A DNA stretch of 48,521 nt from a virus. Positions 2,301 to 37,240 of the stretch are shown piece by piece. How positions within the stretch are numbered: position 1 is the stretch's first letter; each line of letters opens with the position of its first letter. The position numbers and the translations under genes are program-made. The notes below the pieces were generated by a model that was given only the letters and a program-made list of their open reading frames with translations, did not search any database and had not been told where the DNA came from. The DNA lies in the IMG/VR virus record IMGVR_UViG_3300025889_000185, positions 1 to 48,521 of that record. One strand, given 5' to 3'.

Positions 2301-2500
2301 TGATAGTATATGAACCAAGAAACACAGTAAAGGTAATAACACCAAAAGGTGTGGGTAGAATATGGTTAGTCACAGAATACGGACTAGAGACTCAGAAACT
2401 TTTTACATGTATTTTAGATGACAATGGACAGATATGGGAGTTTACAAACTCACAAATTACAGTTCAATCTAATCCTACAATAGAAGGGTTTAAAGATTGA
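2300..2500 (+). CDS. Small beta-barrel-like protein, unknown (66 aa)
   Basis: The ATG overlaps the previous stop by one base. The sequence alternates hydrophobic strands around VKVITPKGVGRIW, LFTCILDDNG and WEFTNSQITV, which suggests a small SH3/KOW-like barrel. No catalytic residues are seen. It is coupled to the next gene by a TTGA overlap. The function is unknown. Confidence 0.5.
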   Translation: MIVYEPRNTVKVITPKGVGRIWLVTEYGLETQKLFTCILDDNGQIWEFTNSQITVQSNPTIEGFKD

Positions 2501-3264
2501 AGATATATTTTAACGGAAACAATAAGGCACACATTCAGATGTTAGAGGAATGTAAAGTAAAGAATGTAATGTTATCATTCAAATATTCTTATGCAAATAT
2601 AACTAAGTTTAAGGACAAGTTTGAAAAGATATTTGTAGTATCTGGAACTAATACAGAATCAGAAAGATATTATGAACTGTTAAAAAAACATAAAGGATTA
2701 TACGACTATGCAGCACAGTTTGATGTATTCTATGATATGGAAGCAACTATAAAATATTATGAGAATGAAAGAAAGATGGGAATAGACTGGACAATTCCAG
2801 TATTACAGGGAAATTATCTTAATCATTTGGCAAGATTACAATTAGAAAAAGGAAGTTATGTATGTCTAGGTGAGGTTCGTGGAAGAGAGGAAACAGAAGA
2901 TCAGATAAGAAAACTACCGTTTAACTATAAATATCATGGACTTGCAAAAGGCAGATATACAAAGAACAATCTGTTTGAATCACTAGATACATCAGGTTGG
3001 ATTTCTGCTGCTATGTCAAAAAAGTGTGAAGTATGGAACAACAACTCTACTAACTTTATGTTCTTTGGAGAGAAAGGAAAATCAATGATACCAATGTTAA
3101 ACCATGCATGTGAGATTCACAAAGAATATTTAGAGTTAATTAATTTAAATAAACAGGATATAATTGATGGAGATTATTACGCATTAATGAAAGCACCATT
3201 CGCTTTACTATATATGCCTATGTGTAAACAACTGAATATATTAGAACAAAACTTTAATATTTAA
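2497..3264 (+). CDS. Possible tRNA-guanine-transglycosylase/DpdA-like TIM-barrel protein
   Basis: This 255-residue protein starts at TTG overlapping the previous TGA; the first in-frame ATG (Met20) would remove a good N-terminal strand. Successive strand-helix units, WTIPVLQGN, YVCLGEVRG, YKYHGLAKG and the late SLDTSGW resemble the barrel order of tRNA-guanine transglycosylases, where a 'SxDSxxW' element follows a conserved Gly. Viral relatives (DpdA) put 7-deazaguanines into DNA. Here no queuosine or archaeosine precursor genes are visible, and the zinc site of true TGTs is absent. The assignment is tentative; an unrelated phage TIM-barrel family is possible. Confidence 0.4.
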   Translation: MKIYFNGNNKAHIQMLEECKVKNVMLSFKYSYANITKFKDKFEKIFVVSGTNTESERYYELLKKHKGLYDYAAQFDVFYDMEATIKYYENERKMGIDWTIPVLQGNYLNHLARLQLEKGSYVCLGEVRGREETEDQIRKLPFNYKYHGLAKGRYTKNNLFESLDTSGWISAAMSKKCEVWNNNSTNFMFFGEKGKSMIPMLNHACEIHKEYLELINLNKQDIIDGDYYALMKAPFALLYMPMCKQLNILEQNFNI

Positions 3265-16096: not shown

Positions 16097-16342
16097 ATGG
16101 AAGATTCCAAGATAAGTGTTGATATAAGAGTAGTTGGAGATGGAAACAGGGGTATATATTACCCAGATACACAGAGAGTAATAGTATATTTAAATAAACA
16201 TGAATCCTATGATGATTTATTAAAATCTATTAACCATGAGTTGATACATCACTGTATCAATATATGTGGAGAAACAATGGACGAAGATCAGGAGGAAAAA
16301 TGCATTTTCTGTATGAGTTGGGCAGACCACTCATTGATTTGA
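16097..16342 (+). CDS. Small HExxH metalloprotease-like protein (81 aa)
   Basis: I chose the ATG 24 bases after tttataat (16070-16077); a longer in-frame reading from 16022 crosses the divergent promoter. H47-E-L-I-H51-H52 lies on a predicted helix after a beta pair (GIYYPDTQRVIVYL), as in minimal zincins. A C-x2-C follows (CIFC). It is very small for an active protease, so it may need a partner. Confidence 0.55.
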   Translation: MEDSKISVDIRVVGDGNRGIYYPDTQRVIVYLNKHESYDDLLKSINHELIHHCINICGETMDEDQEEKCIFCMSWADHSLI

Positions 16343-16627
16343 GTCAATATAGACGAGACTTTCTTTACCACTATCCAAGAGTACATTTATTTTTGTATAG
16401 TATTGTGTCTCATATCTGTCAAGTCTTTGCAAGTCTTCGCTAGTAACATCAAATACTTTACCATATACAGTACCATCTTTGAATGGAACAATGGTAGGAT
16501 AAGGCAAGAGAGTATGATCTGATACTTTATAACCTTTTAGAGTATCAGTCTCACCATCTACGTGTTTATCCAATACTCTATACCTAATATTATCATCTAA
16601 TAAAGAACCATAAGTAAAAATTCTCAT
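16331..16627 (-). CDS. Gamma-glutamylcyclotransferase-like (AIG2/GGCT) protein
   Basis: This 98-residue GGCT-fold protein begins with IFTYGSLL, the substrate-binding glycine-rich loop, and ends with DLQRLDRYE, containing the late Asp-x-Tyr-Glu feature. Such enzymes release 5-oxoproline from gamma-glutamyl amines or peptides. In phages this fold often accompanies amidoligases and amidotransferases, as found here 6 kb away. It overlaps its upstream mini zinc gene by ATGA. The catalytic Glu is not certain. Confidence 0.75.
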   Translation of the reverse strand: MRIFTYGSLLDDNIRYRVLDKHVDGETDTLKGYKVSDHTLLPYPTIVPFKDGTVYGKVFDVTSEDLQRLDRYETQYYTKINVLLDSGKESLVYIDSNQ

Positions 16628-16792: not shown

Positions 16793-16807
16793 TTGTTGTG
16801 TACAACT
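16793..16807. repeat. 15-bp repeat at gene 3' end, copy 1
   Basis: TTGTTGTGTACAACT overlaps the stop of the last operon gene. An identical copy is at 21959-21973; the core GTTGT-GT-ACAAC is an inverted repeat. Confidence 0.6.
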
Positions 16808-17306
16808 ATGCATGGCATAACCATGCAGGTTGTTCACGCTTGGTATACTTTAGTATGTGTTGCTTGCCGTTGATATAATAGTTATGATATGATTTTATTA
16901 CATTGGTGTATGTCCTATCACCAATCTTGTATTCATCTGACATTGCTCTAGCCCATGGTGTCATTTGTTCAACAGGTAAGTCAGGTATCGGTAGGTCTTT
17001 GATTGCTGTCCATGATTTGTGGTCAACATCTTTATTATATCTATATCTATATTCATTGTTTAATTCTTCAGTTAATTTAAACAACCAATAATAATTAAAC
17101 AAACTATCACGTAACCATTTATTACATGGGTGATTAGTGTGTGTTTGTTTGTATGGTATGTCGTATGATTTTTCATAACGACTTGGGTGTAGATGATGGG
17201 TGGTGCATATCATCTGTGCTGATTCAAGTATCATCTTGACTACATGTTTGTCACAATGCATCTCTGCACATCTACGTGGATCAGAATCTAAAACAAATAT
17301 GTTCAT
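16806..17306 (-). CDS. Conserved phage protein of MNIFVLD type, unknown function
   Basis: This 166-residue protein belongs to a family I recognise from many marine phages by MNIFVLDxDP, a DKHVVKMILESAQ helix, and the C-terminal YHNYY...K...QPAWL pattern. Sometimes it is labelled pyrimidine-dimer glycosylase, which I cannot support. I chose the start with a Shine-Dalgarno GGAGG eight bases upstream and an ATGA overlap with the preceding gene. It is the last gene of the long minus-strand operon. Conserved His and Lys suggest an enzyme. Confidence 0.7.
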   Translation of the reverse strand: MNIFVLDSDPRRCAEMHCDKHVVKMILESAQMICTTHHLHPSRYEKSYDIPYKQTHTNHPCNKWLRDSLFNYYWLFKLTEELNNEYRYRYNKDVDHKSWTAIKDLPIPDLPVEQMTPWARAMSDEYKIGDRTYTNVIKSYHNYYINGKQHILKYTKREQPAWLCHA

Positions 17307-17509
17307 CAGTATTCCTCCCATATTGTTTTACCTAATATCAATTCCATTTTGATTGCTGATGTCAAATCTATTATCTCGTCTGTTGTTAAATTTCTGCATC
17401 TGTTTTTTCTTATGTGATCTATCACATGTTTTACTTCATACCCATCTGCTATACCAATGAGTGAATGAGTTAGATGAAGTATAAACTTCTCTCTCTCATT
17501 GAGTTCCAT
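17306..17509 (-). CDS. Small helical protein (67 aa)
   Basis: I start at MELNEREKF, which has a Shine-Dalgarno-like GGTGAG about five bases upstream; a longer frame to 17611 would lie mostly inside the upstream gene. It is helical (FILHLTHSLIG, TTDEIIDLTSAIKMEL). The function is unknown; it is operon-internal. Confidence 0.5.
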   Translation of the reverse strand: MELNEREKFILHLTHSLIGIADGYEVKHVIDHIRKNRCRNLTTDEIIDLTSAIKMELILGKTIWEEY

Positions 17510-17867: not shown

Positions 17868-17877
17868 ATCACCTCCT
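17868..17877 (-). promoter_or_regulatory. Full Shine-Dalgarno deciding start 17864
   Basis: The minus strand reads AGGAGGTGAT, three bases before the ATG and overlapping the VWA stop; it complements the archaeal 16S 3' end. Confidence 0.7.
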
Positions 17878-19651
17878 AGTTTTTCATGCAACGAATTATC
17901 TCCTTGCGAAGATTGTTGACCATAAAGTTCTCTACATCTTCTATGCCTCTACACCTAATATATTTGTTACCAAACATTCTGGACATGTAACTTGAATTGT
18001 ATATCTCGTTACCAAATCCTATGATGGTAATGTTAGGTGTAGTCTTTATGGCTTTCTTGTATGCGACTATGGTTTCTTTACATGTCACATCACTTCTGAT
18101 TTGTACACCATTCTTTTTGTATTGTGGGTATCCATCTGTCAATACAATGAGTAACTTTCTTTTGCCACTCATCTTACGAAGTTCTTTTTCACCCTGTTCA
18201 ATACCAAAGTGTGTTGGTGTGTAGCCTGATGTTTGATATGGTAGATAACCAATGTCATTGATGTTATTGTATCTTCTGATTGACATGTTACCTTTATTGT
18301 CTGAACTCCAAGTAATACATTTGATTTGTATTGACTTTTCATCTTCAACAGATTTCCATAACGTTGATACAAGTTTTACAACTGATGAATTTACTCTATG
18401 CATACTACCTGAACCATCAATGCTTATGACAACTGATAAACCATTTGTCTCTCTGTCATCAATAAAGCAATCACCATAACCGTTTGCCTTGAGTGTAATG
18501 TATTCACCTACATCAACCTCGTAACCATCTTCAACGATTGCCTGTTTTGGTTTCTCTTTGAAGTTCTTGAGTAATCTCTTAAAGTCTCTGATTACTTTGT
18601 TGTTGTATTCTACTTTCTGTGGTTGTCCTCTCTTTACCAAAGGACTTTCATAGACTGATACTTTACCACTTGGCATAGAGTTACCTTCTAGTGCAACTCT
18701 GATTTCGTTTACTGTATCTCTTGCTTCATCTGCTAGTTCTTCAAGTGTATTTTCATAAGAAATGTCACCGAGTTCTTCATCTGTATATTCTTCTTCATCT
18801 TCGTCAACATCATAACCTCTACTTGAATCAACCTGTCTGCCTTCATCAAATCTTTTGTCCTCGTTGTTTAACTCTTCAACAATGTCATTGAATTGTTTGA
18901 TTGTCTTTTGTTTCTCTTCGTCTAATTGTCTTAACTCGTCCAAGTCTTTTGCTTGTTTGGACATTATTTCTTTTGTTTTATTCTTCAACTCTTTAACTTG
19001 TTTCTCTTTGTTTATTCTATTCTCAATGTATTCATCAAGATATGGTTTGATTCTTTTTAGTACAACCATAGTTGCTCTAAGTTCTTTGAACTCTACATCT
19101 TTTAATCTGTCAGCAATGAATGGATACTTTGTCTTTGCAACCAAGTCATCTCTGTAGAATCTCTTTGCTAACATTGTCATGCTTGGGTGGTCAACAAACT
19201 CTAGTTCTTTACCAAGATTCTTTCTTGTTCGTACAAACTCATGAACGTTACCAAGATATATCTTACCCCAAAGTGATTCTATTCTCTGGTCTTCTATTAC
19301 ATTCATGCACTCATGGTATACATTAAATGCTGTAGTTGCATCATCACCCCATCTCTTTGACCATTTATTAATTGTCTTGAGTGCTCTCTTATCAAATGAG
19401 TTGAACAATACATGTGCAAGCTCATGGTTGATTGCAGTGTTACCATCAATACCTCTACACTTTGGACTTGCTTTTGTAACAAGATAACCTTCACTTGTTT
19501 GCATTGCATAGTTTGTTTTTGGTTCATATCGTAACTCAATCGGTGAGTTAACAATCTTACTGATGATACCAACCTTTTTCTTGTCGTAATCTTTCTCTGA
19601 TAAATAATCAGAAGAGGAAAGAGTTACCTCGTTTAGAGTAGGTATAGGCAT
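17876..19651 (-). CDS. VWA-domain protein with N-terminal HExxH (CobT/CoxE-like)
   Basis: This 591-residue protein has three parts. The N-terminal zincin-like segment has H76-E-L-A-H80. A long acidic and coiled-coil middle covers about 200-300. The C-terminal von Willebrand A domain has the metal-dependent adhesion motif D412-G-S-G-S416, a TSGYTPTH threonine loop and VLTDGYPQ. VWA proteins of this type team up with MoxR AAA+ ATPases to insert metals or remodel complexes. The MoxR gene ends immediately before this ATG, with a Shine-Dalgarno GGAGTTGAT near the junction. Confidence 0.85.
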   Translation of the reverse strand: MPIPTLNEVTLSSSDYLSEKDYDKKKVGIISKIVNSPIELRYEPKTNYAMQTSEGYLVTKASPKCRGIDGNTAINHELAHVLFNSFDKRALKTINKWSKRWGDDATTAFNVYHECMNVIEDQRIESLWGKIYLGNVHEFVRTRKNLGKELEFVDHPSMTMLAKRFYRDDLVAKTKYPFIADRLKDVEFKELRATMVVLKRIKPYLDEYIENRINKEKQVKELKNKTKEIMSKQAKDLDELRQLDEEKQKTIKQFNDIVEELNNEDKRFDEGRQVDSSRGYDVDEDEEEYTDEELGDISYENTLEELADEARDTVNEIRVALEGNSMPSGKVSVYESPLVKRGQPQKVEYNNKVIRDFKRLLKNFKEKPKQAIVEDGYEVDVGEYITLKANGYGDCFIDDRETNGLSVVISIDGSGSMHRVNSSVVKLVSTLWKSVEDEKSIQIKCITWSSDNKGNMSIRRYNNINDIGYLPYQTSGYTPTHFGIEQGEKELRKMSGKRKLLIVLTDGYPQYKKNGVQIRSDVTCKETIVAYKKAIKTTPNITIIGFGNEIYNSSYMSRMFGNKYIRCRGIEDVENFMVNNLRKEIIRCMKN

Positions 19652-20584
19652 CTATACATCAACTCCAAATATCTCTTTGACTTGCTTCTTTACTAACTCT
19701 CTTTGTGCAGGATCACTGAACTTTGAGAGTATAGAGTTCTTGATACTTCTCTCTAATGGTTTCTTCATCTCAGTAGATGACCACATTCTGTAACACTCTG
19801 TAAACTGTGCCAAGTCTCTTGGTGACAATGAGTATTCAACATCTGCATTGAGTCTCAAGTTATGTATGTTCTGAGTCAATGTCATGAGTGGTGCAATCAC
19901 TGTATCATCTGGAATACCACGCCAGTCAATAATCTTTCTGAGATTATCACTTGATGGATACTCCCAGATAGAACCAATGAATCTGCTTCTTGCATCTTCT
20001 GTCAATGTATTGACACCTGCGTATGTGCTTGGGTTCATTGTTGCAACGACTGATAGTTTTACACCATCATTCAATCTGTATATCTTTCCGTTTGCACTTA
20101 TCTCTCTTCTGTCATCTGTGACAGAGTTGGTTGCTTTCTGTATCTCATGTGCCAATGCATTAAACTCATCAAGGTATAGCAATGCTTTACCGAAATGATT
20201 GGCTACTTCAATAACTGTTGGCAGTACACCTAGTTGGAAGTAACTACCGAACTCATTAATCTGTGGTCTACCAATCAAGTCACCGACTCTAGTTCCTTCT
20301 GAACAGTTCAGTGATACGATAGGCATGTTATGTTTGACACAGATGTTATGAACTAACTGAGTCTTTCCCAATCCTTTGTCGCCTTCAATAAGATAGTTCT
20401 TACCTGCAAGCATACAGGCTTCTAACTCCCTTGCTTCATCATCAAGTTCGATATATTCTACACCCCATTTGCGAGGTAAGTAATTGTCGAAATCAATTTG
20501 GGCAGTGGGAACTTTATACACCCTATCTTTTGGTGTGTTCTCGTTGGTCGTCTTTAACGACTCTATGTATTCTATTTTATCCAT
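19652..20584 (-). CDS. MoxR/CbbQ-type AAA+ ATPase
   Basis: This 310-residue ATPase has Walker A EGDKGLGKT (67-75), Walker B ALLYLDEFN, sensor-1 VVATMNPS and an arginine-finger region EDARSRFIG. I chose the ATG at 20584 because GGAGATG lies upstream and it overlaps the SWIM gene stop; longer starts run back into that gene. With the VWA gene it forms the classic MoxR-VWA chaperone pair that matures metalloenzymes or remodels assemblies. The target in this virus is unknown. Confidence 0.9.
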   Translation of the reverse strand: MDKIEYIESLKTTNENTPKDRVYKVPTAQIDFDNYLPRKWGVEYIELDDEARELEACMLAGKNYLIEGDKGLGKTQLVHNICVKHNMPIVSLNCSEGTRVGDLIGRPQINEFGSYFQLGVLPTVIEVANHFGKALLYLDEFNALAHEIQKATNSVTDDRREISANGKIYRLNDGVKLSVVATMNPSTYAGVNTLTEDARSRFIGSIWEYPSSDNLRKIIDWRGIPDDTVIAPLMTLTQNIHNLRLNADVEYSLSPRDLAQFTECYRMWSSTEMKKPLERSIKNSILSKFSDPAQRELVKKQVKEIFGVDV

Positions 20585-20840
20585 TTGTTTCATCTCCATA
20601 TTTTTCTTGTACTCTTGCATGTTCAACCTCTATCATCTCAATCATAGTGACTGCTATGATATGATAACAGTTCTCTGTGAACTGATAGCCCATGCAATCG
20701 CACTCATACTTGTCGGACTTTATGACAGTATGGTATTTGTTTTCGTCTGATGCTGATGGTAACAACCATGTGTTTTCTTCCACATGGATTACTTTACCGA
20801 GCACCTGTTTTGCTTTTAATACTTGTGATTCGCTCATCAT
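20577..20840 (-). CDS. SWIM zinc-finger protein (87 aa)
   Basis: C47-x-C49 then C58-x-H60 (YECDCMG and ENCYHI) is the SWIM signature, preceded by the typical strand pair ending SDKYECDC. GAGGAG stands five bases before the ATG. The protein is little more than the domain. It lies directly ahead of the MoxR and VWA genes, an order also seen in bacterial SWIM-MoxR-VWA clusters, so it probably belongs to the same machine. Confidence 0.8.
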   Translation of the reverse strand: MMSESQVLKAKQVLGKVIHVEENTWLLPSASDENKYHTVIKSDKYECDCMGYQFTENCYHIIAVTMIEMIEVEHARVQEKYGDETNG

Positions 20841-22116: not shown

Positions 22117-22207
22117 TACCATCACCATTAAATAAAATCATGCGAGAGATATGTCTCTCACTGTATCCATATCTCTCCAGTGTTTGCCTTAGTTCTCTAT
22201 TGTTCAT
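22109..22207 (-). CDS. Mini basic protein (32 aa)
   Basis: The ATG overlaps the end of the amidotransferase gene by 11 bases, and the stop overlaps the next gene. It is basic and helical (RELRQTLERYGYSERHISR). It is very short, supported only by coupling. Confidence 0.35.
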   Translation of the reverse strand: MNNRELRQTLERYGYSERHISRMILFNGDGND

Positions 22208-23057
22208 ACATTTTTCCTACTGCATAGTTCTGCATGATTTCTAACTCATCATCACTGGCATGCATGTCTTTTATTCTTCTGTCTTCTTCATCTAAAAAGT
22301 ATTGTATGTCATACACACTGTAACCATAAGATATGTAATCATCTATCTCGTCTTGTGTTATGTCATATTCTTTTTTCATTGTGTCAATGATTTCTTGCTC
22401 ATACTTTTCATAGTTATTTTGTTTGTGAATGAAGTTGCCATAACCAAATTCATTCCATGCACCGAATGGTGTTGGTACAAAGTAGTCGTTACTACATTTA
22501 TTACCCTTGACGTCACACCAACCTGTACCATATCTAATGATACCTTTGGGTGTTAGTATTGCAATCTTGTTCCAACCTGTAACAAGTTTAGCCATGTCTT
22601 TGTGACCTAATCTGTATGCAAGGTAAGCCATGACACGACTGTCACTGTATTCACCGTAAGGAATAGCAACAGGTTTGTGTTGATTACCTAGATACTTGAT
22701 GAACTCGTCTGCATAATCTGACCACGTACCATTGTGGAATAACAGGGGGAACTTGCACTTACTACCTGCAAGGTTGAGATCTACACGTTTGGTTATCTCG
22801 AATGGGTGGCACAGTTTCTTATTGACTGAACCTACACTAGCAATCCTGAAATGAATGACTGCCGTTTTGATACCCTCTGGTTTTAGTTTGTGTTCAATGA
22901 TGTTGTGAATCTTCTTGGAAGATATACCTTTACGATAGTAGGTATACTTACCATCAGTCCAACCGATTGAACCACCATGACTATTCAATGCTTCTGCATC
23001 TTCTAGTGTTGATTTGGCAGGGTATTTGCCATCTTCTATACATATTACAACGCACAT
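22197..23057 (-). CDS. Class II glutamine amidotransferase
   Basis: This 286-residue Ntn-hydrolase starts MCVV, so Cys2 becomes the N-terminal nucleophile after Met removal. HGGSIGW, HFRIASVG and FHNGTW match the glutamine-binding and oxyanion elements of GATase II. It releases ammonia from glutamine for a partner ligase. AGGAGGTGAT stands three bases before the ATG. The amidoligase gene ends just upstream, so the two probably form one amide-forming system. The C-terminal 90 residues are acidic and helical and extend beyond the core. Confidence 0.85.
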   Translation of the reverse strand: MCVVICIEDGKYPAKSTLEDAEALNSHGGSIGWTDGKYTYYRKGISSKKIHNIIEHKLKPEGIKTAVIHFRIASVGSVNKKLCHPFEITKRVDLNLAGSKCKFPLLFHNGTWSDYADEFIKYLGNQHKPVAIPYGEYSDSRVMAYLAYRLGHKDMAKLVTGWNKIAILTPKGIIRYGTGWCDVKGNKCSNDYFVPTPFGAWNEFGYGNFIHKQNNYEKYEQEIIDTMKKEYDITQDEIDDYISYGYSVYDIQYFLDEEDRRIKDMHASDDELEIMQNYAVGKMYEQ

Positions 23058-23060
23058 AGT

Positions 23061-23070
23061 ATCACCTCCT
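23061..23070 (-). promoter_or_regulatory. Full Shine-Dalgarno of amidotransferase gene
   Basis: The minus strand reads AGGAGGTGAT, three bases before ATG 23057, promising strong translation of an operon-internal gene. Confidence 0.7.
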
Positions 23071-23133
23071 AATGTCTATATGACGTAGACACAAAATGTG
23101 TTTCGGGTATTGAACCCATCATCAGTACGCCTA

Positions 23134-24180
23134 TTAAATACTAACACGCATTAATTTAATGTCGTCTTTGTATTCCTCTACAAACTCATCAACAATATGT
23201 GCTAGTGCGATAGTTGATGCACGCATTAGACTGAACTTCTGAAACTCTGGTAACACTCTGATTTCCATTGTCTCATGTAATCCATAACAATAGTTGACTC
23301 GTCTGTATCTGTATTCTTCTTTGGTTCTGCCTGACATGAGTTGACCAATAGCATCATAGTTACGCTTGCACCAATGCACATTACCTGCTAGTCGTTGGTA
23401 AAATGCACTGTCATGGTTGATGTTTGCCGTTTTACCCCAATACTCAAGCCATGTTGGTAGCCAACGGTCATTGAACTCTCTGTTCAATAGGATTGACTGT
23501 GCTCTCATATTGGATTTGAATGAGAAGTGTCTATGACCACCACATGAATTGTTGGATTGTATTACGTGATGCTTATCCATAAACTCAAGGACTTTTTCGT
23601 ATGGTAATGCAGGAGATACAATCTCACCATCAACACCATCACCACTATTACCACAATCATGCTCACAACCACAGTTCATGTCACAAGAAAGATATGTTCC
23701 ATTAGAACCACTCTCACAATCCGTTATGGAATTTTCATCAAATGCTTGACGAGCACAAGTATTACATGTACGATTATCATTATCAATACATTCTTGACAA
23801 CCTTTTTCCATGTATTCATCATCATAATAACAGTCACAGTTTTCCCAAGTACCATCACATTCTGAACAAATGGTACAATCATAACAATCACAATCAACTG
23901 TTCTGCAATCACATGCACTGCAACGTCTACAATCACTGCACTCACAGTACTCACGACAATTACAATCACCATCATTATCACCAACTACTTCGACTGAACT
24001 ATCGTAGTGGTAAAGGTCAGTATCACGCAGTTCTTGTGGCACTGCACCTTCATCTTCTAAGCCAATAAAGGCTATATGCTTCAGGGGTATTTGAGCGAGT
24101 CCATCTGCATCAGTAGCATATATATCTATACGCTGTCTGAGACTGAGGTCGCTATTTTTGGGTGTGGTTTTTCTAGTCAT
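23134..24180 (-). CDS. Amidoligase-family protein with 24-cysteine insertion
   Basis: This 348-residue COOH-NH2 ligase-like protein (GCS-like phage amidoligases) shows IGLEDEG (39-45), EIVSP (186-190), CGGHRHFSF (213-221), YRYRRVNYC and MEIRVLPEF in family order; these bind ATP and form amide bonds. Between the first two motifs lies a 104-residue insert (73-176) with 24 Cys, mostly in C-x-C and C-x2-C pairs, able to bind several metal ions. Neighbour is a glutamine amidotransferase. A bound metal cluster, redox switch or acceptor peptide are alternatives for the insert. Confidence 0.8.
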   Translation of the reverse strand: MTRKTTPKNSDLSLRQRIDIYATDADGLAQIPLKHIAFIGLEDEGAVPQELRDTDLYHYDSSVEVVGDNDGDCNCREYCECSDCRRCSACDCRTVDCDCYDCTICSECDGTWENCDCYYDDEYMEKGCQECIDNDNRTCNTCARQAFDENSITDCESGSNGTYLSCDMNCGCEHDCGNSGDGVDGEIVSPALPYEKVLEFMDKHHVIQSNNSCGGHRHFSFKSNMRAQSILLNREFNDRWLPTWLEYWGKTANINHDSAFYQRLAGNVHWCKRNYDAIGQLMSGRTKEEYRYRRVNYCYGLHETMEIRVLPEFQKFSLMRASTIALAHIVDEFVEEYKDDIKLMRVSI

Positions 24181-24841
24181 GTCCTCTATGTTGTACTCCT
24201 ATATTTCTTATTGGAAAGTCAGGGTATCTAGTCTTTACCATTGACTCTACTTCGTACTGTATTAAATCATCTTCAGCTTCAGTTAGCATTGCAACGAAAC
24301 GCTCGTACAAATGCACTCTGAATTTGTTCTTGACTTTATCACAGAACAACTCAAGACCTTCGAGATAATATGACATCATCTCGGTTGAGTGTGGGGTAGT
24401 GATTACCTTATGTCCGAATGTATTAGCACCTATGGCTCTGAATACACTCAGGTCAACAACATGCTCACCATTCATGTTGTCATGTATGACTGTCTGATAG
24501 TTTCTACCGTATCTAACATGCTCACAATCATAGTCATTATGTTCGAGCATGAAGCTAAGCATATTAGCGAATGACCTATTAGTAAACACTAACACGCAGA
24601 AGTTATTGAACTCTTCAGTAGGGGGAACTATCATAACCTCTACTTTTGGATCAACTGTCTTATAAAAGTCAGGCAGTTTAGATTGGTTTGGGGGTATGTC
24701 AAGCAAGGTCTCTATAAGATAGTGACCATTCTTGGCAGTAATCTCACCACAATTAATATCCATAACAACGTTATGAATACGATTGTAGATCTGGTCAGAA
24801 TATATACATTCCTGCATACTGTAATAATATACACTATACAC
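24173..24841 (-). CDS. Unknown protein preceding amidoligase (222 aa)
   Basis: The GTG start fits a strong TATA box (24863-24870) centred 25 bases upstream; an ATG eight codons later is possible. The overlap of 8 bases with the amidoligase start shows co-translation. It is mixed alpha/beta with HNDYDCEHVRYG and KVITTPHSTEMM segments and no known motif. It probably works with the amidoligase and amidotransferase. Confidence 0.65.
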   Translation of the reverse strand: MYSVYYYSMQECIYSDQIYNRIHNVVMDINCGEITAKNGHYLIETLLDIPPNQSKLPDFYKTVDPKVEVMIVPPTEEFNNFCVLVFTNRSFANMLSFMLEHNDYDCEHVRYGRNYQTVIHDNMNGEHVVDLSVFRAIGANTFGHKVITTPHSTEMMSYYLEGLELFCDKVKNKFRVHLYERFVAMLTEAEDDLIQYEVESMVKTRYPDFPIRNIGVQHRGHD

Positions 24842-24862
24842 TAATAAGAATCTATCTTACTG

Positions 24863-24870
24863 TTATATAT
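24863..24870 (-). promoter_or_regulatory. TATA box of amidoligase/amidotransferase operon
   Basis: ttatatat on this stretch is centred 25 bases before the GTG at 24841, supporting that start. Confidence 0.55.
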
Positions 24871-24979
24871 AGCATACATTTGATTCGTAAGAGACAGGCA
24901 AGAATACCTGCCACTCACGTAATATAAACCCATCGCAATTTAATTTAATTACAGATAGGGGTATTAGTAAAAAGTGGGG

Positions 24980-25008
24980 TGTGGATAGTATATAATATAC
25001 TACCCACA
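24980..25008. repeat. 29-bp inverted repeat
   Basis: Arms TGTGGATAGTATAT and ATATACTACCCACA flank one central base with a single mismatch. It lies about 110 bases upstream of the promoter of the amidoligase operon. Confidence 0.65.
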
Positions 25009-25428
25009 GTCTACCTGAAGTCTACATACGACAGTTATATAACTTGTAGTTAATTTCCTACCGTATGTTTATCTGTATATGTGTGCCTCGCCTACTGGCT
25101 TAATCATGAATCAGTCAGGTATGCCTAGCACTCTCTCGGGGAGCATACCCTTCCTCACACTTCGTAACGTTCCTAACCGTCACTCACACGTGTAACTCCG
25201 TAAGCGTTCCTAAACTGTCCTCAGCATACGCTCAGTTAGGACTAAGCGTTAGCCTTAGACTCGTTGCTGTAAGAGCCCATGTGTCTCGCTGTGAGCGTGT
25301 CACAGAAAGATAGTTCCCTTACCACACCAAGACATATAGCATTTTCATGCGTATCTCCACAGTGTACCGTGCGTGTAATAGCGAGCCAAGTACTCATGGA
25401 AAAAAAATGGTTTTTATGAAACACATAT

Positions 25429-25495
25429 ATACAAGTCGGGAAAAAATTTGATACAAATCGGGAAAAAAGTTAGATACAAATCCGATTGGAAATTT
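25429..25495. repeat. Three tandem 22-23-bp repeats
   Basis: Units begin at 25429, 25451 and 25474 with ATACAAGTCGGG, ATACAAATCGGG and ATACAAATCCGA. The first two are followed by A6 runs, which read as T-tracts on the minus strand right after the last gene of that operon. Confidence 0.6.
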
Positions 25496-25622
25496 AACAA
25501 CAGTCAGGACATAGTATTTTCTTAGTATCCACTATAAGAACATTGGATTTATGGCAGTTGTGACACAACCCATATAAATCTGGGGAGCAACAACCATCAC
25601 ATTTGTGAAACAGTTTGGTCAT
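25494..25622 (-). CDS. Mini cysteine-rich zinc protein (42 aa)
   Basis: CDGCC, CHNC and CPDCC provide three cysteine pairs, enough for one or two zinc ions. It is the last gene of a minus-strand operon, followed by T-rich repeats. Confidence 0.55.
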   Translation of the reverse strand: MTKLFHKCDGCCSPDLYGLCHNCHKSNVLIVDTKKILCPDCC

Positions 25623-25630
25623 AATACTTC

Positions 25631-25768
25631 TTAGTCTTGACATCTTTTTATTAATTCCTCTAATACTTTAAGCCTGTACTCATTAGCAGAAGGATCTTTT
25701 TTCACTCTGTCATAAACCTTTATAAAGTCTTCAAGGTGGGCTTTGCGAATCGCTTCATCACTGTACAT
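25631..25768 (-). CDS. Small helical protein (45 aa)
   Basis: This is a single amphipathic helical protein (LEDFIKVYDRVKKD; YRLKVLEELIKRCQ). It overlaps the upstream zinc-finger gene by 11 bases. The function is unknown. Confidence 0.45.
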   Translation of the reverse strand: MYSDEAIRKAHLEDFIKVYDRVKKDPSANEYRLKVLEELIKRCQD

Positions 25769-35775: not shown

Positions 35776-36339
35776 ATGGCACAAATGCCAAGCTTAATTC
35801 CAAAGGAAGTTGAAATACAACGACTAAAGAAAATTTGGTTGATTGTAATTGCTATGGGATCAACAGCAGCATCAGTCGAAGTAGATAACTTCGTTGATGG
35901 TTCACTTCATCAAACATCAATTAGGGATTCTGCATTTACTCCTGCACATTGGTGGCTATACAGTCACTTTATTGCATTGCCTTTGGGTTGGGGTTCAGTT
36001 GCGATCTATGATCGTAAAGTTCCAATTCTAAGAGGAGTAAATAATTCTATGAATACAGGATTAAAGATGACCATTCTTGGTTACTTGGCTACTATGTTTA
36101 CCATTGGTGTAAACGAGATGTGGCACTTTTGGTTCGTAGAAGAAATCTTCGCAGTACCTAATCACTGGATGTTTAACATGGGAGTTGTAGTTGCCTTTAT
36201 GGGAGCACTAGCTTATGTCGTAAGAGTATATGCTAGACTTGTGGAACTTGGTGTAGAAACTCCAAGTGAGAATCCATACGTTGCAGAAATGTATAAGATG
36301 GCTCTTGAAGGTAAATTATACAGCAGATCAATCCCATAG
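35776..36339 (+). CDS. amoC: Ammonia monooxygenase subunit C (amoC)
   Basis: This 187-residue archaeal AmoC is full length and membrane-embedded, with helices around 20-35, 60-80, 97-112 and 132-155. The metal-site helix has NEMWH (113-117) and H130, with H117 and H130 spaced 13 apart as the two His of the bacterial PmoC copper site. The sequence looks almost identical to the host protein as I know it, with no truncation. The promoter aaatatatatt lies 27 bases upstream. No amoA or amoB is here, so the product must join the host enzyme. It is a host-derived auxiliary metabolic gene. Confidence 0.95.
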   Translation: MAQMPSLIPKEVEIQRLKKIWLIVIAMGSTAASVEVDNFVDGSLHQTSIRDSAFTPAHWWLYSHFIALPLGWGSVAIYDRKVPILRGVNNSMNTGLKMTILGYLATMFTIGVNEMWHFWFVEEIFAVPNHWMFNMGVVVAFMGALAYVVRVYARLVELGVETPSENPYVAEMYKMALEGKLYSRSIP

Positions 36340-36343
36340 TCTA

Positions 36344-36351
36344 TTTTTTTA
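36344..36351 (+). terminator. T-tract after amoC
   Basis: A T7 run starts within ten bases of the amoC stop, separating amoC from the cupredoxin-like gene. Confidence 0.4.
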
Positions 36352-36374
36352 TATTATACTAAACTTAATTAACT

Positions 36375-36390
36375 TAGCTTAATTAAGCTA
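36375..36390. repeat. 16-bp palindrome between amoC and cupredoxin-like gene
   Basis: TAGCTTAATTAAGCTA is a perfect palindrome within a stretch (36362-36425) rich in further TTAATTAA and TTAGCTAA copies. It could be an operator for the downstream promoter at 36449, or a terminator element. Confidence 0.6.
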
Positions 36391-36448
36391 GCTAAGTCGT
36401 ATGCGTTAGCTAATGTTTAATTAACCTATATTTTTTTCATAACAGATT

Positions 36449-36461
36449 GGTTTATATTAGG
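36449..36461 (+). promoter_or_regulatory. Promoter of cupredoxin-like gene
   Basis: ggtttatattagg is centred 27 bases before ATG 36482; it is the same extended box as at two minus-strand genes near 27 kb. Confidence 0.6.
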
Positions 36462-36481
36462 TATATCATACTATCAATATA

Positions 36482-37240
36482 ATGATTAGAGCAATCACAG
36501 TATTAACTGCTTTAGCATTGTTAACAACAATGTCTTTTGCAAATGCAGAGACACCTGAAACTGTAACCGTAACAGGATTTCCATTTGAAGTAAGTGTTCT
36601 TGAAGGTGGAAGTATTACTTTCACAAACAATAATGACACTGTAATGGATTTTGTCAGTTATGGTTGGTTTGAAGGAAGTGTTCAACCAAATGAATCTTTG
36701 ACTATAGATTTACCAATCACTGATTGTGGAAATGTCTGCTTTTTTGCAGAGGATTACTACATTAGAGATTTATCTACAGGTGATTACAGTATTCTACACA
36801 TTATTGCAAAACCAATAGTTGTAGAAGCCATAGCAGAACCAGTAGTTCAAACTGTAGCATTAGAAGAATCATTACAAGTTGAAGAAACAGTAGTAACTGA
36901 AGATGAGGGCATTTATAATGTCACATTAGTTAGTGAAGAACCAGATGTAATTACATTGCAATTACAACTTGCAGAAACAACAAGTAGTTTAAATTCAGCA
37001 CTTGAACAAATAGGAGTCAAGAACGCAGAAATATCTCTATTAAATGAAGAGATAAACAATTTAAATTCACAGTTGGTTATTGCAAATTCAACAGTAGTTG
37101 ATATAACATATACAGAGCAGTTAGAATCACAAATTGTTTCTCTTACAGCAGAGAAAGATAAATGGAAACAACTAGCAAATAGTTGGTACACTGTTGCAAT
37201 GGAACAACTTAGAGTGATGGTACAAGTCTTAGGACTCTAA
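36482..37240 (+). CDS. Secreted cupredoxin-like protein with coiled coil
   Basis: This 252-residue protein has a signal peptide (1-22, ending SFANA). It carries a cupredoxin-like beta sandwich (about 27-110: GFPFEVSVLEGGSITFTNNN, split by turns), then an acidic linker and a C-terminal coiled coil (LNEEINNLNSQLVIAN). The usual copper ligands are missing: only C82, C86 and H106 lie in the relevant loops. Promoter tttatatta is 27 bases upstream. It would act outside the membrane, like the host's many blue-copper proteins, but probably without a type 1 copper. Confidence 0.7.
   Translation: MIRAITVLTALALLTTMSFANAETPETVTVTGFPFEVSVLEGGSITFTNNNDTVMDFVSYGWFEGSVQPNESLTIDLPITDCGNVCFFAEDYYIRDLSTGDYSILHIIAKPIVVEAIAEPVVQTVALEESLQVEETVVTEDEGIYNVTLVSEEPDVITLQLQLAETTSSLNSALEQIGVKNAEISLLNEEINNLNSQLVIANSTVVDITYTEQLESQIVSLTAEKDKWKQLANSWYTVAMEQLRVMVQVLGL

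Follow-up and report, generated by a model that had tools for sequence, protein, structure and literature searches.

What would a virus of ammonia-oxidising archaea (AOA) do with an enzyme set for forming amide bonds, and on which substrate would such a set act? The question is raised by three adjacent minus-strand genes in a 48,521-base virus record, the whole of which was analysed and is hereafter called the window. In the order of transcription these genes encode a partner protein (P222), a predicted carboxylate-amine ligase (ADL) and a predicted glutamine amidotransferase (GAT); a predicted gamma-glutamyl cyclotransferase (GGCT) is encoded 5.6 kb downstream of this module, again on the minus strand. 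In the sea AOA rank among the most abundant archaea, and they drive nitrification. A second nitrogen-related function, handling glutamine and ammonia, beside the amoC gene of these viruses would bear on the nitrogen economy or the surface of infected AOA. Here we explore how far the module is conserved, which families its proteins belong to and which reading of its function fits best.

Gene layout and viral setting

The window is taken as a virus of marine AOA, since it encodes AmoC (PF04896, E = 7e-14) and isolated amoC genes are known to be carried by marine AOA viruses (PMC11849493). It also encodes a tailed-virus portal (PHROG 18178, E = 2e-39), and two further proteins are read as an MCM-like helicase and a RadA-like recombinase. 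The archaeal-virus setting assumed in the earlier note is supported by these four proteins. At 35776-37240 on the plus strand lies amoC, which has 93-96% identity among relatives, followed by a gene for a cupredoxin-like protein (a weak match, E = 0.04). A minus-strand block at 17876-20840 contains genes for a MoxR/CobS-like AAA ATPase, a VWA protein and a SWIM zinc-finger protein; the AAA and VWA genes are kept in close relatives, and divergent copies also occur in viruses that lack the module. Near GGCT, at 16806-17321 on the minus strand, a pyrimidine-dimer-glycosylase-like protein is encoded (PF03013; PHROG 624, E = 1e-53), which is present in some relatives. A 255 aa product of 2497-3264 (plus strand), suspected by eye to be DpdA-like and as such of interest for a DNA-modification reading, obtained no support from Pfam or PHROGs.

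The three minus-strand ORFs of the module, those of P222 and ADL overlapping, were found exactly where the earlier note had placed them (Table 1). The P222 and ADL ORFs share 8 nt and ADL is separated from GAT by 76 nt. Joint transcription of P222, ADL and GAT from one promoter is plausible and compatible with the single TATA-like box; GAT has a strong Shine-Dalgarno sequence of its own. Judged from relatives, the in-frame ATG may be an alternative start of P222, which would then have 214 aa.

Table 1. Coordinates of the module, its signals and associated features (window positions unless a relative is named)
Feature	Position	Strand	Description
GAT	22197..23057	minus	286 aa; predicted class II (Ntn-hydrolase, N-terminal Cys) glutamine amidotransferase and NH3 supplier
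ADL	23134..24180	minus	348 aa; predicted glutamine-synthetase-fold carboxylate-amine ligase (Amidoligase_2-like)
Cys-rich insert in ADL	23653..23964	minus	about residues 73-176; predicted metal cluster; from alignment and motif scan
P222	24173..24841	minus	222 aa; predicted amidoligase partner protein; GTG start, or ATG at 24817
GGCT/GGACT	16331..16627	minus	98 aa; AIG2-like gamma-glutamyl cyclotransferase, PF06094
Archaeal TATA-like box TTTATATT	24928-24921	minus	upstream of P222; found by eye
Shine-Dalgarno of GAT AGGAGGTGAT	23070-23061	minus	strong
Small ORF upstream of P222-like gene	L001 4492-4905; L003 5946-6344; L019 5300-5653; L024 5532-6035; L026 5984-6343		in relatives

Upstream of P222, the 0.9 kb at 24842-25757 hold no convincing gene. 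Two blocks of this region, at about 25327-25536 and at 25595-25738, have 67-86% identity in related viruses, the stretch at 25.0-25.3 kb folds better than its shuffles (z = -2.2) and 22-nt direct repeats occur at 25418-25482. Rfam gave no match anywhere in the window, this region included, which is possibly an origin, an RNA or a control region.

Conservation of the module and families of its enzymes

Single-sequence searches identified no relatives of ADL or GAT in viral contigs and none of ADL in phage records; relatives were reached first via the AAA gene and later via the GAT profile. A scan of genome contigs with short patterns gave distant GAT relatives in Verrucomicrobia MAGs only and none in AOA genomes. 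The GAT-profile scan yielded 80 viral loci, with a ligase directly upstream of GAT in nearly all of them. The adjacency of the predicted ligase and GAT is not due to chance, given that it recurs in nearly all related loci. Since this set had been selected by GAT, loci were additionally sampled by portal. Among loci that extended far enough on the side of the module, the ligase was present in 13 of 13 at a portal identity of at least 78% and in 3 of 13 at 68-76%; the sample contains several near-duplicates, with about nine lineages in either group, which leaves a real contrast that does not stem from independent events. Of the 23 whole records, 11 contained both ligase and GAT and another 11 neither, the remaining record (G023) having a ligase match alone, at the contig end; these counts are drawn from related viruses and hence not independent. 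The module is real and conserved.

The window GAT matches PF13522 (GATase_6) with E = 4.4e-4, below the curated cut-off, and the profile matched five of six GAT relatives (best E = 1.8e-5). The class II signature, consisting of C2 directly after Met1, HFRIASVG (H69-F70-R71), HNGT (H108-N109-G110) and SDxR (S138-D139), is invariant in six relatives; it comprises the N-terminal Cys nucleophile and the Gln-binding R, NG and D. A search of PDB sequences with the GAT profile gave no match. A tree of 67 GATs places the archaeal-virus sequences in one well-supported set (99/90) of 18 rows, 17 plus one unassigned sequence, and the nearest to the window GAT are those of L004 and L014. With PF13522 weakly matched and the signature intact, the class II identity proposed in the earlier note is supported.

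For ADL, which the earlier note had named an amidoligase, the outcome differs between the single sequence and its family. The check set by the earlier note, a profile match of 23134-24180 to amidoligases, is borderline in a single Pfam scan: against PF12224 the window sequence alone obtained E = 0.17, below the Pfam cut-off, and the best among six close ADL relatives obtained E = 0.0022. The cut-off is passed by the ADL homologue of L035, which has no Cys-rich insert (E = 1.1e-7), and by ligases that adjoin GAT homologues (L043, E = 7e-20; L058, E = 2e-9). When six aligned ADL relatives were compared by hhalign with four phage proteins that had been annotated as amidoligases or were interpreted as such, a probability of 95.5% and an E-value of 1.4e-8 were obtained. 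Fourteen residues are invariant in 18 aligned relatives, the window included: E42, E44, D60, S62, E186, H216, H218, R263, Q280, R291, Y292, N296, E306 and R308. ADL has the amidoligase core motifs GxExE, DGS, GExxS, CGxHxH, RYxxxN and TxExR, and its core residues are common to phage amidoligases.

A search of PDB sequences with the ADL profile gave nothing useful. The AlphaFold model of the window ADL has low confidence (pLDDT 53), and its Foldseek matches, among the 50 listed, are nearly all to glutamine synthetase and also to YbdK, all of them weak (best E 0.16). The sister protein of L033 has a confidently modelled core (pLDDT mostly 85-97) with YbdK as top Foldseek match, also weak (E 0.83). 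On this family evidence, profile, invariant core residues and weakly predicted fold taken together, we accept ADL as a predicted glutamine-synthetase-fold carboxylate-amine ligase, which agrees with the earlier note; the assignment stands at the level of family profile and motifs, the single-sequence score lying below the cut-off.

Cys-rich insert, partner protein and predicted mechanism

Between its DGS and GExxS motifs ADL has an insert of about 100 residues, in which some 20 Cys positions are invariant in an alignment of six relatives. It contains two tandem 18-residue units of the form C-x-C-x2-C-x2-C-x2-C-x6 (ADL residues 79-96 and 97-114), and a motif scan found the unit paired in 10 of 11 proteins checked. 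Sister viruses have an ADL without the insert; in several of them the corresponding loop still contains a short Cys motif. The natural reading of the insert is a predicted metal (zinc-like) cluster. A large Cys-rich insert between two core motifs, together with the strong divergence from PF12224, might also be expected if ADL were catalytically dead and formed, with the insert and P222, a metal-binding scaffold or host-takeover protein. We consider this improbable, as the residues of catalytic type are precisely those invariant in 18 proteins with and without the insert, and the GAT signature is intact.

The third protein, the extra partner of the earlier note, is real and conserved, having counterparts beside the ligase in relatives. 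A P222-like gene adjoins the ligase in the AOA-virus loci examined, usually just upstream of it; in L150 the counterpart lies between ligase and GAT and overlaps both by a few bases. The ligases of L027, L028, L031 and L033 carry, as a fusion, an N-terminal domain of about 190 residues. A profile comparison of the P222 group with this fused domain scored 24.3, against a maximum of 12.4 in 100 column shuffles and of 16.1 with unrelated natural alignments. The predicted model of the fused domain has the order strand-strand-helix, then strand-long helix, which fits the P222 sequences by eye. P222 thus probably represents a partner domain detached from the ligase, homologous to the N-terminal fusion in sister viruses; we call the homology probable rather than proven because it rests on the profile score while pairwise probabilities stay low. 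The P222 family is fast-evolving and too divergent for one reliable alignment. Neither it nor the tandem Cys repeats matched Pfam or PHROGs, and both appear to be protein parts that have not been described before. Five relatives have another small ORF, of 117-167 aa, directly upstream of the P222-like gene (Table 1), and the N-terminus of P222 may hold a remnant of it.

GGCT matches PF06094 well above the cut-off (E = 7.7e-16, 59.2 bits against 22.8), and the YG[ST]L loop and LDxYE with the catalytic Glu are invariant in an alignment of 11 sequences, so that its identity, too, is as the earlier note had proposed. PF06094 was found in six of eight long module-bearing records and in none of ten lacking the module (Fisher p = 0.0015, a value that ignores relatedness, and some module-lacking records are fragments). 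In L019 and L024 (= L125 and L123) the gene has been relocated beside the portal, yet retained. The link between this distant gene and the module, which the earlier note had drawn, is supported by the co-occurrence; GGCT is not essential, since two long module-bearing records (G015 and G020) are without it.

We regard it as fairly probable that these proteins constitute a virus-encoded, glutamine-dependent amide-forming system that would be active in the cytoplasm of infected AOA. This rests on the adjacency of ADL and GAT, their joint presence or absence, the family membership of the ligase and the GATase signature; on the GGCT residues, the co-occurrence of that gene and its retention after a move; and on the conservation of P222, its fusion in sister viruses and its counterpart in L150. 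In such a system GAT would split glutamine and release ammonia, as expected from its family and intact signature. ADL would use ATP to activate a carboxylate, which it would link either to this ammonia or to an amine, as its family, fold and conserved residues suggest. P222, with its gene overlapping that of ADL and its probable homology to the fused domain, could be a substrate-recognition or scaffolding subunit, and GGCT might reverse or salvage gamma-glutamyl-amine products. Candidate substrates are precursors of surface or S-layer glycans, carboxylates of host proteins and small metabolites.

As a more specific and tentative proposal, which we hold to be possible though doubtful, a dedicated, metal-cluster-bearing ADL-P222 complex would, with GAT, modify the host during infection by amidating or conjugating carboxylates on its surface (e.g. 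those of acidic precursors of S-layer glycans) or on its proteins. If this were true, the account of the related phage cassette as a peptidoglycan modifier would be wrong or incomplete.

Alternatively, ADL could be a gamma-glutamyl-amine ligase that joins glutamate to a host amine, GGCT releasing the product and GAT only adjusting Gln/Glu/NH3 pools, i.e. a nitrogen-handling auxiliary metabolism. The co-occurrence of GGCT with the module is in keeping with this, as are the presence of YbdK, of the glutamate-cysteine ligase type, among the fold matches and the fact that gamma-glutamyl-amines are substrates of members of PF06094. It is nonetheless unlikely in our view: ADL is strictly paired with GAT, which suggests that ammonia is handed over directly, a simple metabolite ligase needs neither P222 nor the Cys-rich insert, and GGCT is missing from two of the eight long records.

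Class II GATases also take part in 7-deazaguanine pathways, and the module genes sit in a non-structural minus-strand block, both of which would suit a modification of DNA or nucleotides in which GAT and ADL amidate a base-linked carboxylate. This is very improbable, no base-modification gene having been recognised by Pfam or PHROGs among the window proteins scanned, and the ligase-GAT pair occurring in very different viruses. The glutamine-dependent amide-forming system is our preferred reading. In broad terms the earlier note was partly borne out: its observation was confirmed, and the gene identities, the archaeal setting, the GGCT link and the extra partner are supported, while its tagging of proteins or surface polymers is one possible role.

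Comparison with amidoligase cassettes of phages

The closest described gene sets are those of the podoviruses LUZ24, phiEco32 and PSA-HP1, in which an amidoligase, a GATase and a GGCT occur together with an ATP-grasp protein and a second ligase, and which have been described as a 'peptidoglycan modification' cassette (PMC5498523, PMC3890496, PMC11945000). In these and related podoviruses (phiEco32, LUZ24/PaP3/tf, PSA-HP1, RIO-1), as in the window with its predicted ligase and GATase, an Amidoligase_2 ligase, a class II GATase and an AIG2/GGCT protein are found in one virus. LUZ24-like phages also have a small ORF that overlaps the start of the amidoligase gene, as P222 does; P222 and LUZ24 gp17, which has the matching position, show no similarity, hence the shared layout is no evidence of homology.

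Could the window module then be a peptidoglycan modification module such as has been proposed for phiEco32/LUZ24-type phages, with which it shares the core enzymes amidoligase, GATase and GGCT (PMC5498523, PMC11945000)? Neither the RimK-type ATP-grasp protein (PF08443) nor the PF14395 COOH-NH2 ligase was found in the window or in eight relatives, in a search that did detect PF14395 in LUZ24. To our knowledge AOA have no peptidoglycan, and for both reasons we find this explanation scarcely credible; the module would have to act on something other than the peptidoglycan proposed for the phages, since its inferred host lacks it. The anti-superinfection account of peptidoglycan modification by the phage cassette has been held for over a decade, and no experiment behind it was found in the literature searched. 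A conserved version in viruses of peptidoglycan-free AOA allows that explanation to be tested by contrast, and directs attention to a different substrate.

A search of the literature other than Iyer 2009 and Ahlgren 2019 found no archaeal-virus case of this layout, and amidoligases go unmentioned in the papers covered that deal with integrated elements of thaumarchaea, with viruses of soil AOA and with tailed viruses of archaea; in the haloviruses phiCh1 and ChaoS9 a class II GATase alone has been noted. The marine OM43 phages MEP401 and MEP402 have a putative amidoligase gene directly upstream of a GATase gene (PMC10580990), i.e. the same ligase-then-GATase order as the window. In these bacterial phages, however, the ligase is longer (548 aa) and very different, neither P222 nor tandem Cys units are recognised, and the GAT has about 27-29% identity to that of the window over the first 118 residues only. 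The two-gene amidoligase-GATase loci of IMG/VR contigs L038-L093 share the gene order and spacing of the window, and their GAT is homologous (HMM E about 1e-20 to 1e-37). Their ligases, with up to 13 Cys, are without the Cys-rich insert, and neither a recognisable P222 nor, in the flanks, a GGCT of the same family is present. Set against the podovirus cassette, the module differs in its peptidoglycan-free archaeal host, in its Cys-rich insert and in that no PF08443 or PF14395 protein was found. As judged from gene content and family assignments, it is a reduced yet elaborated archaeal-virus variant of the phage amidoligase-GATase-GGCT cassette.
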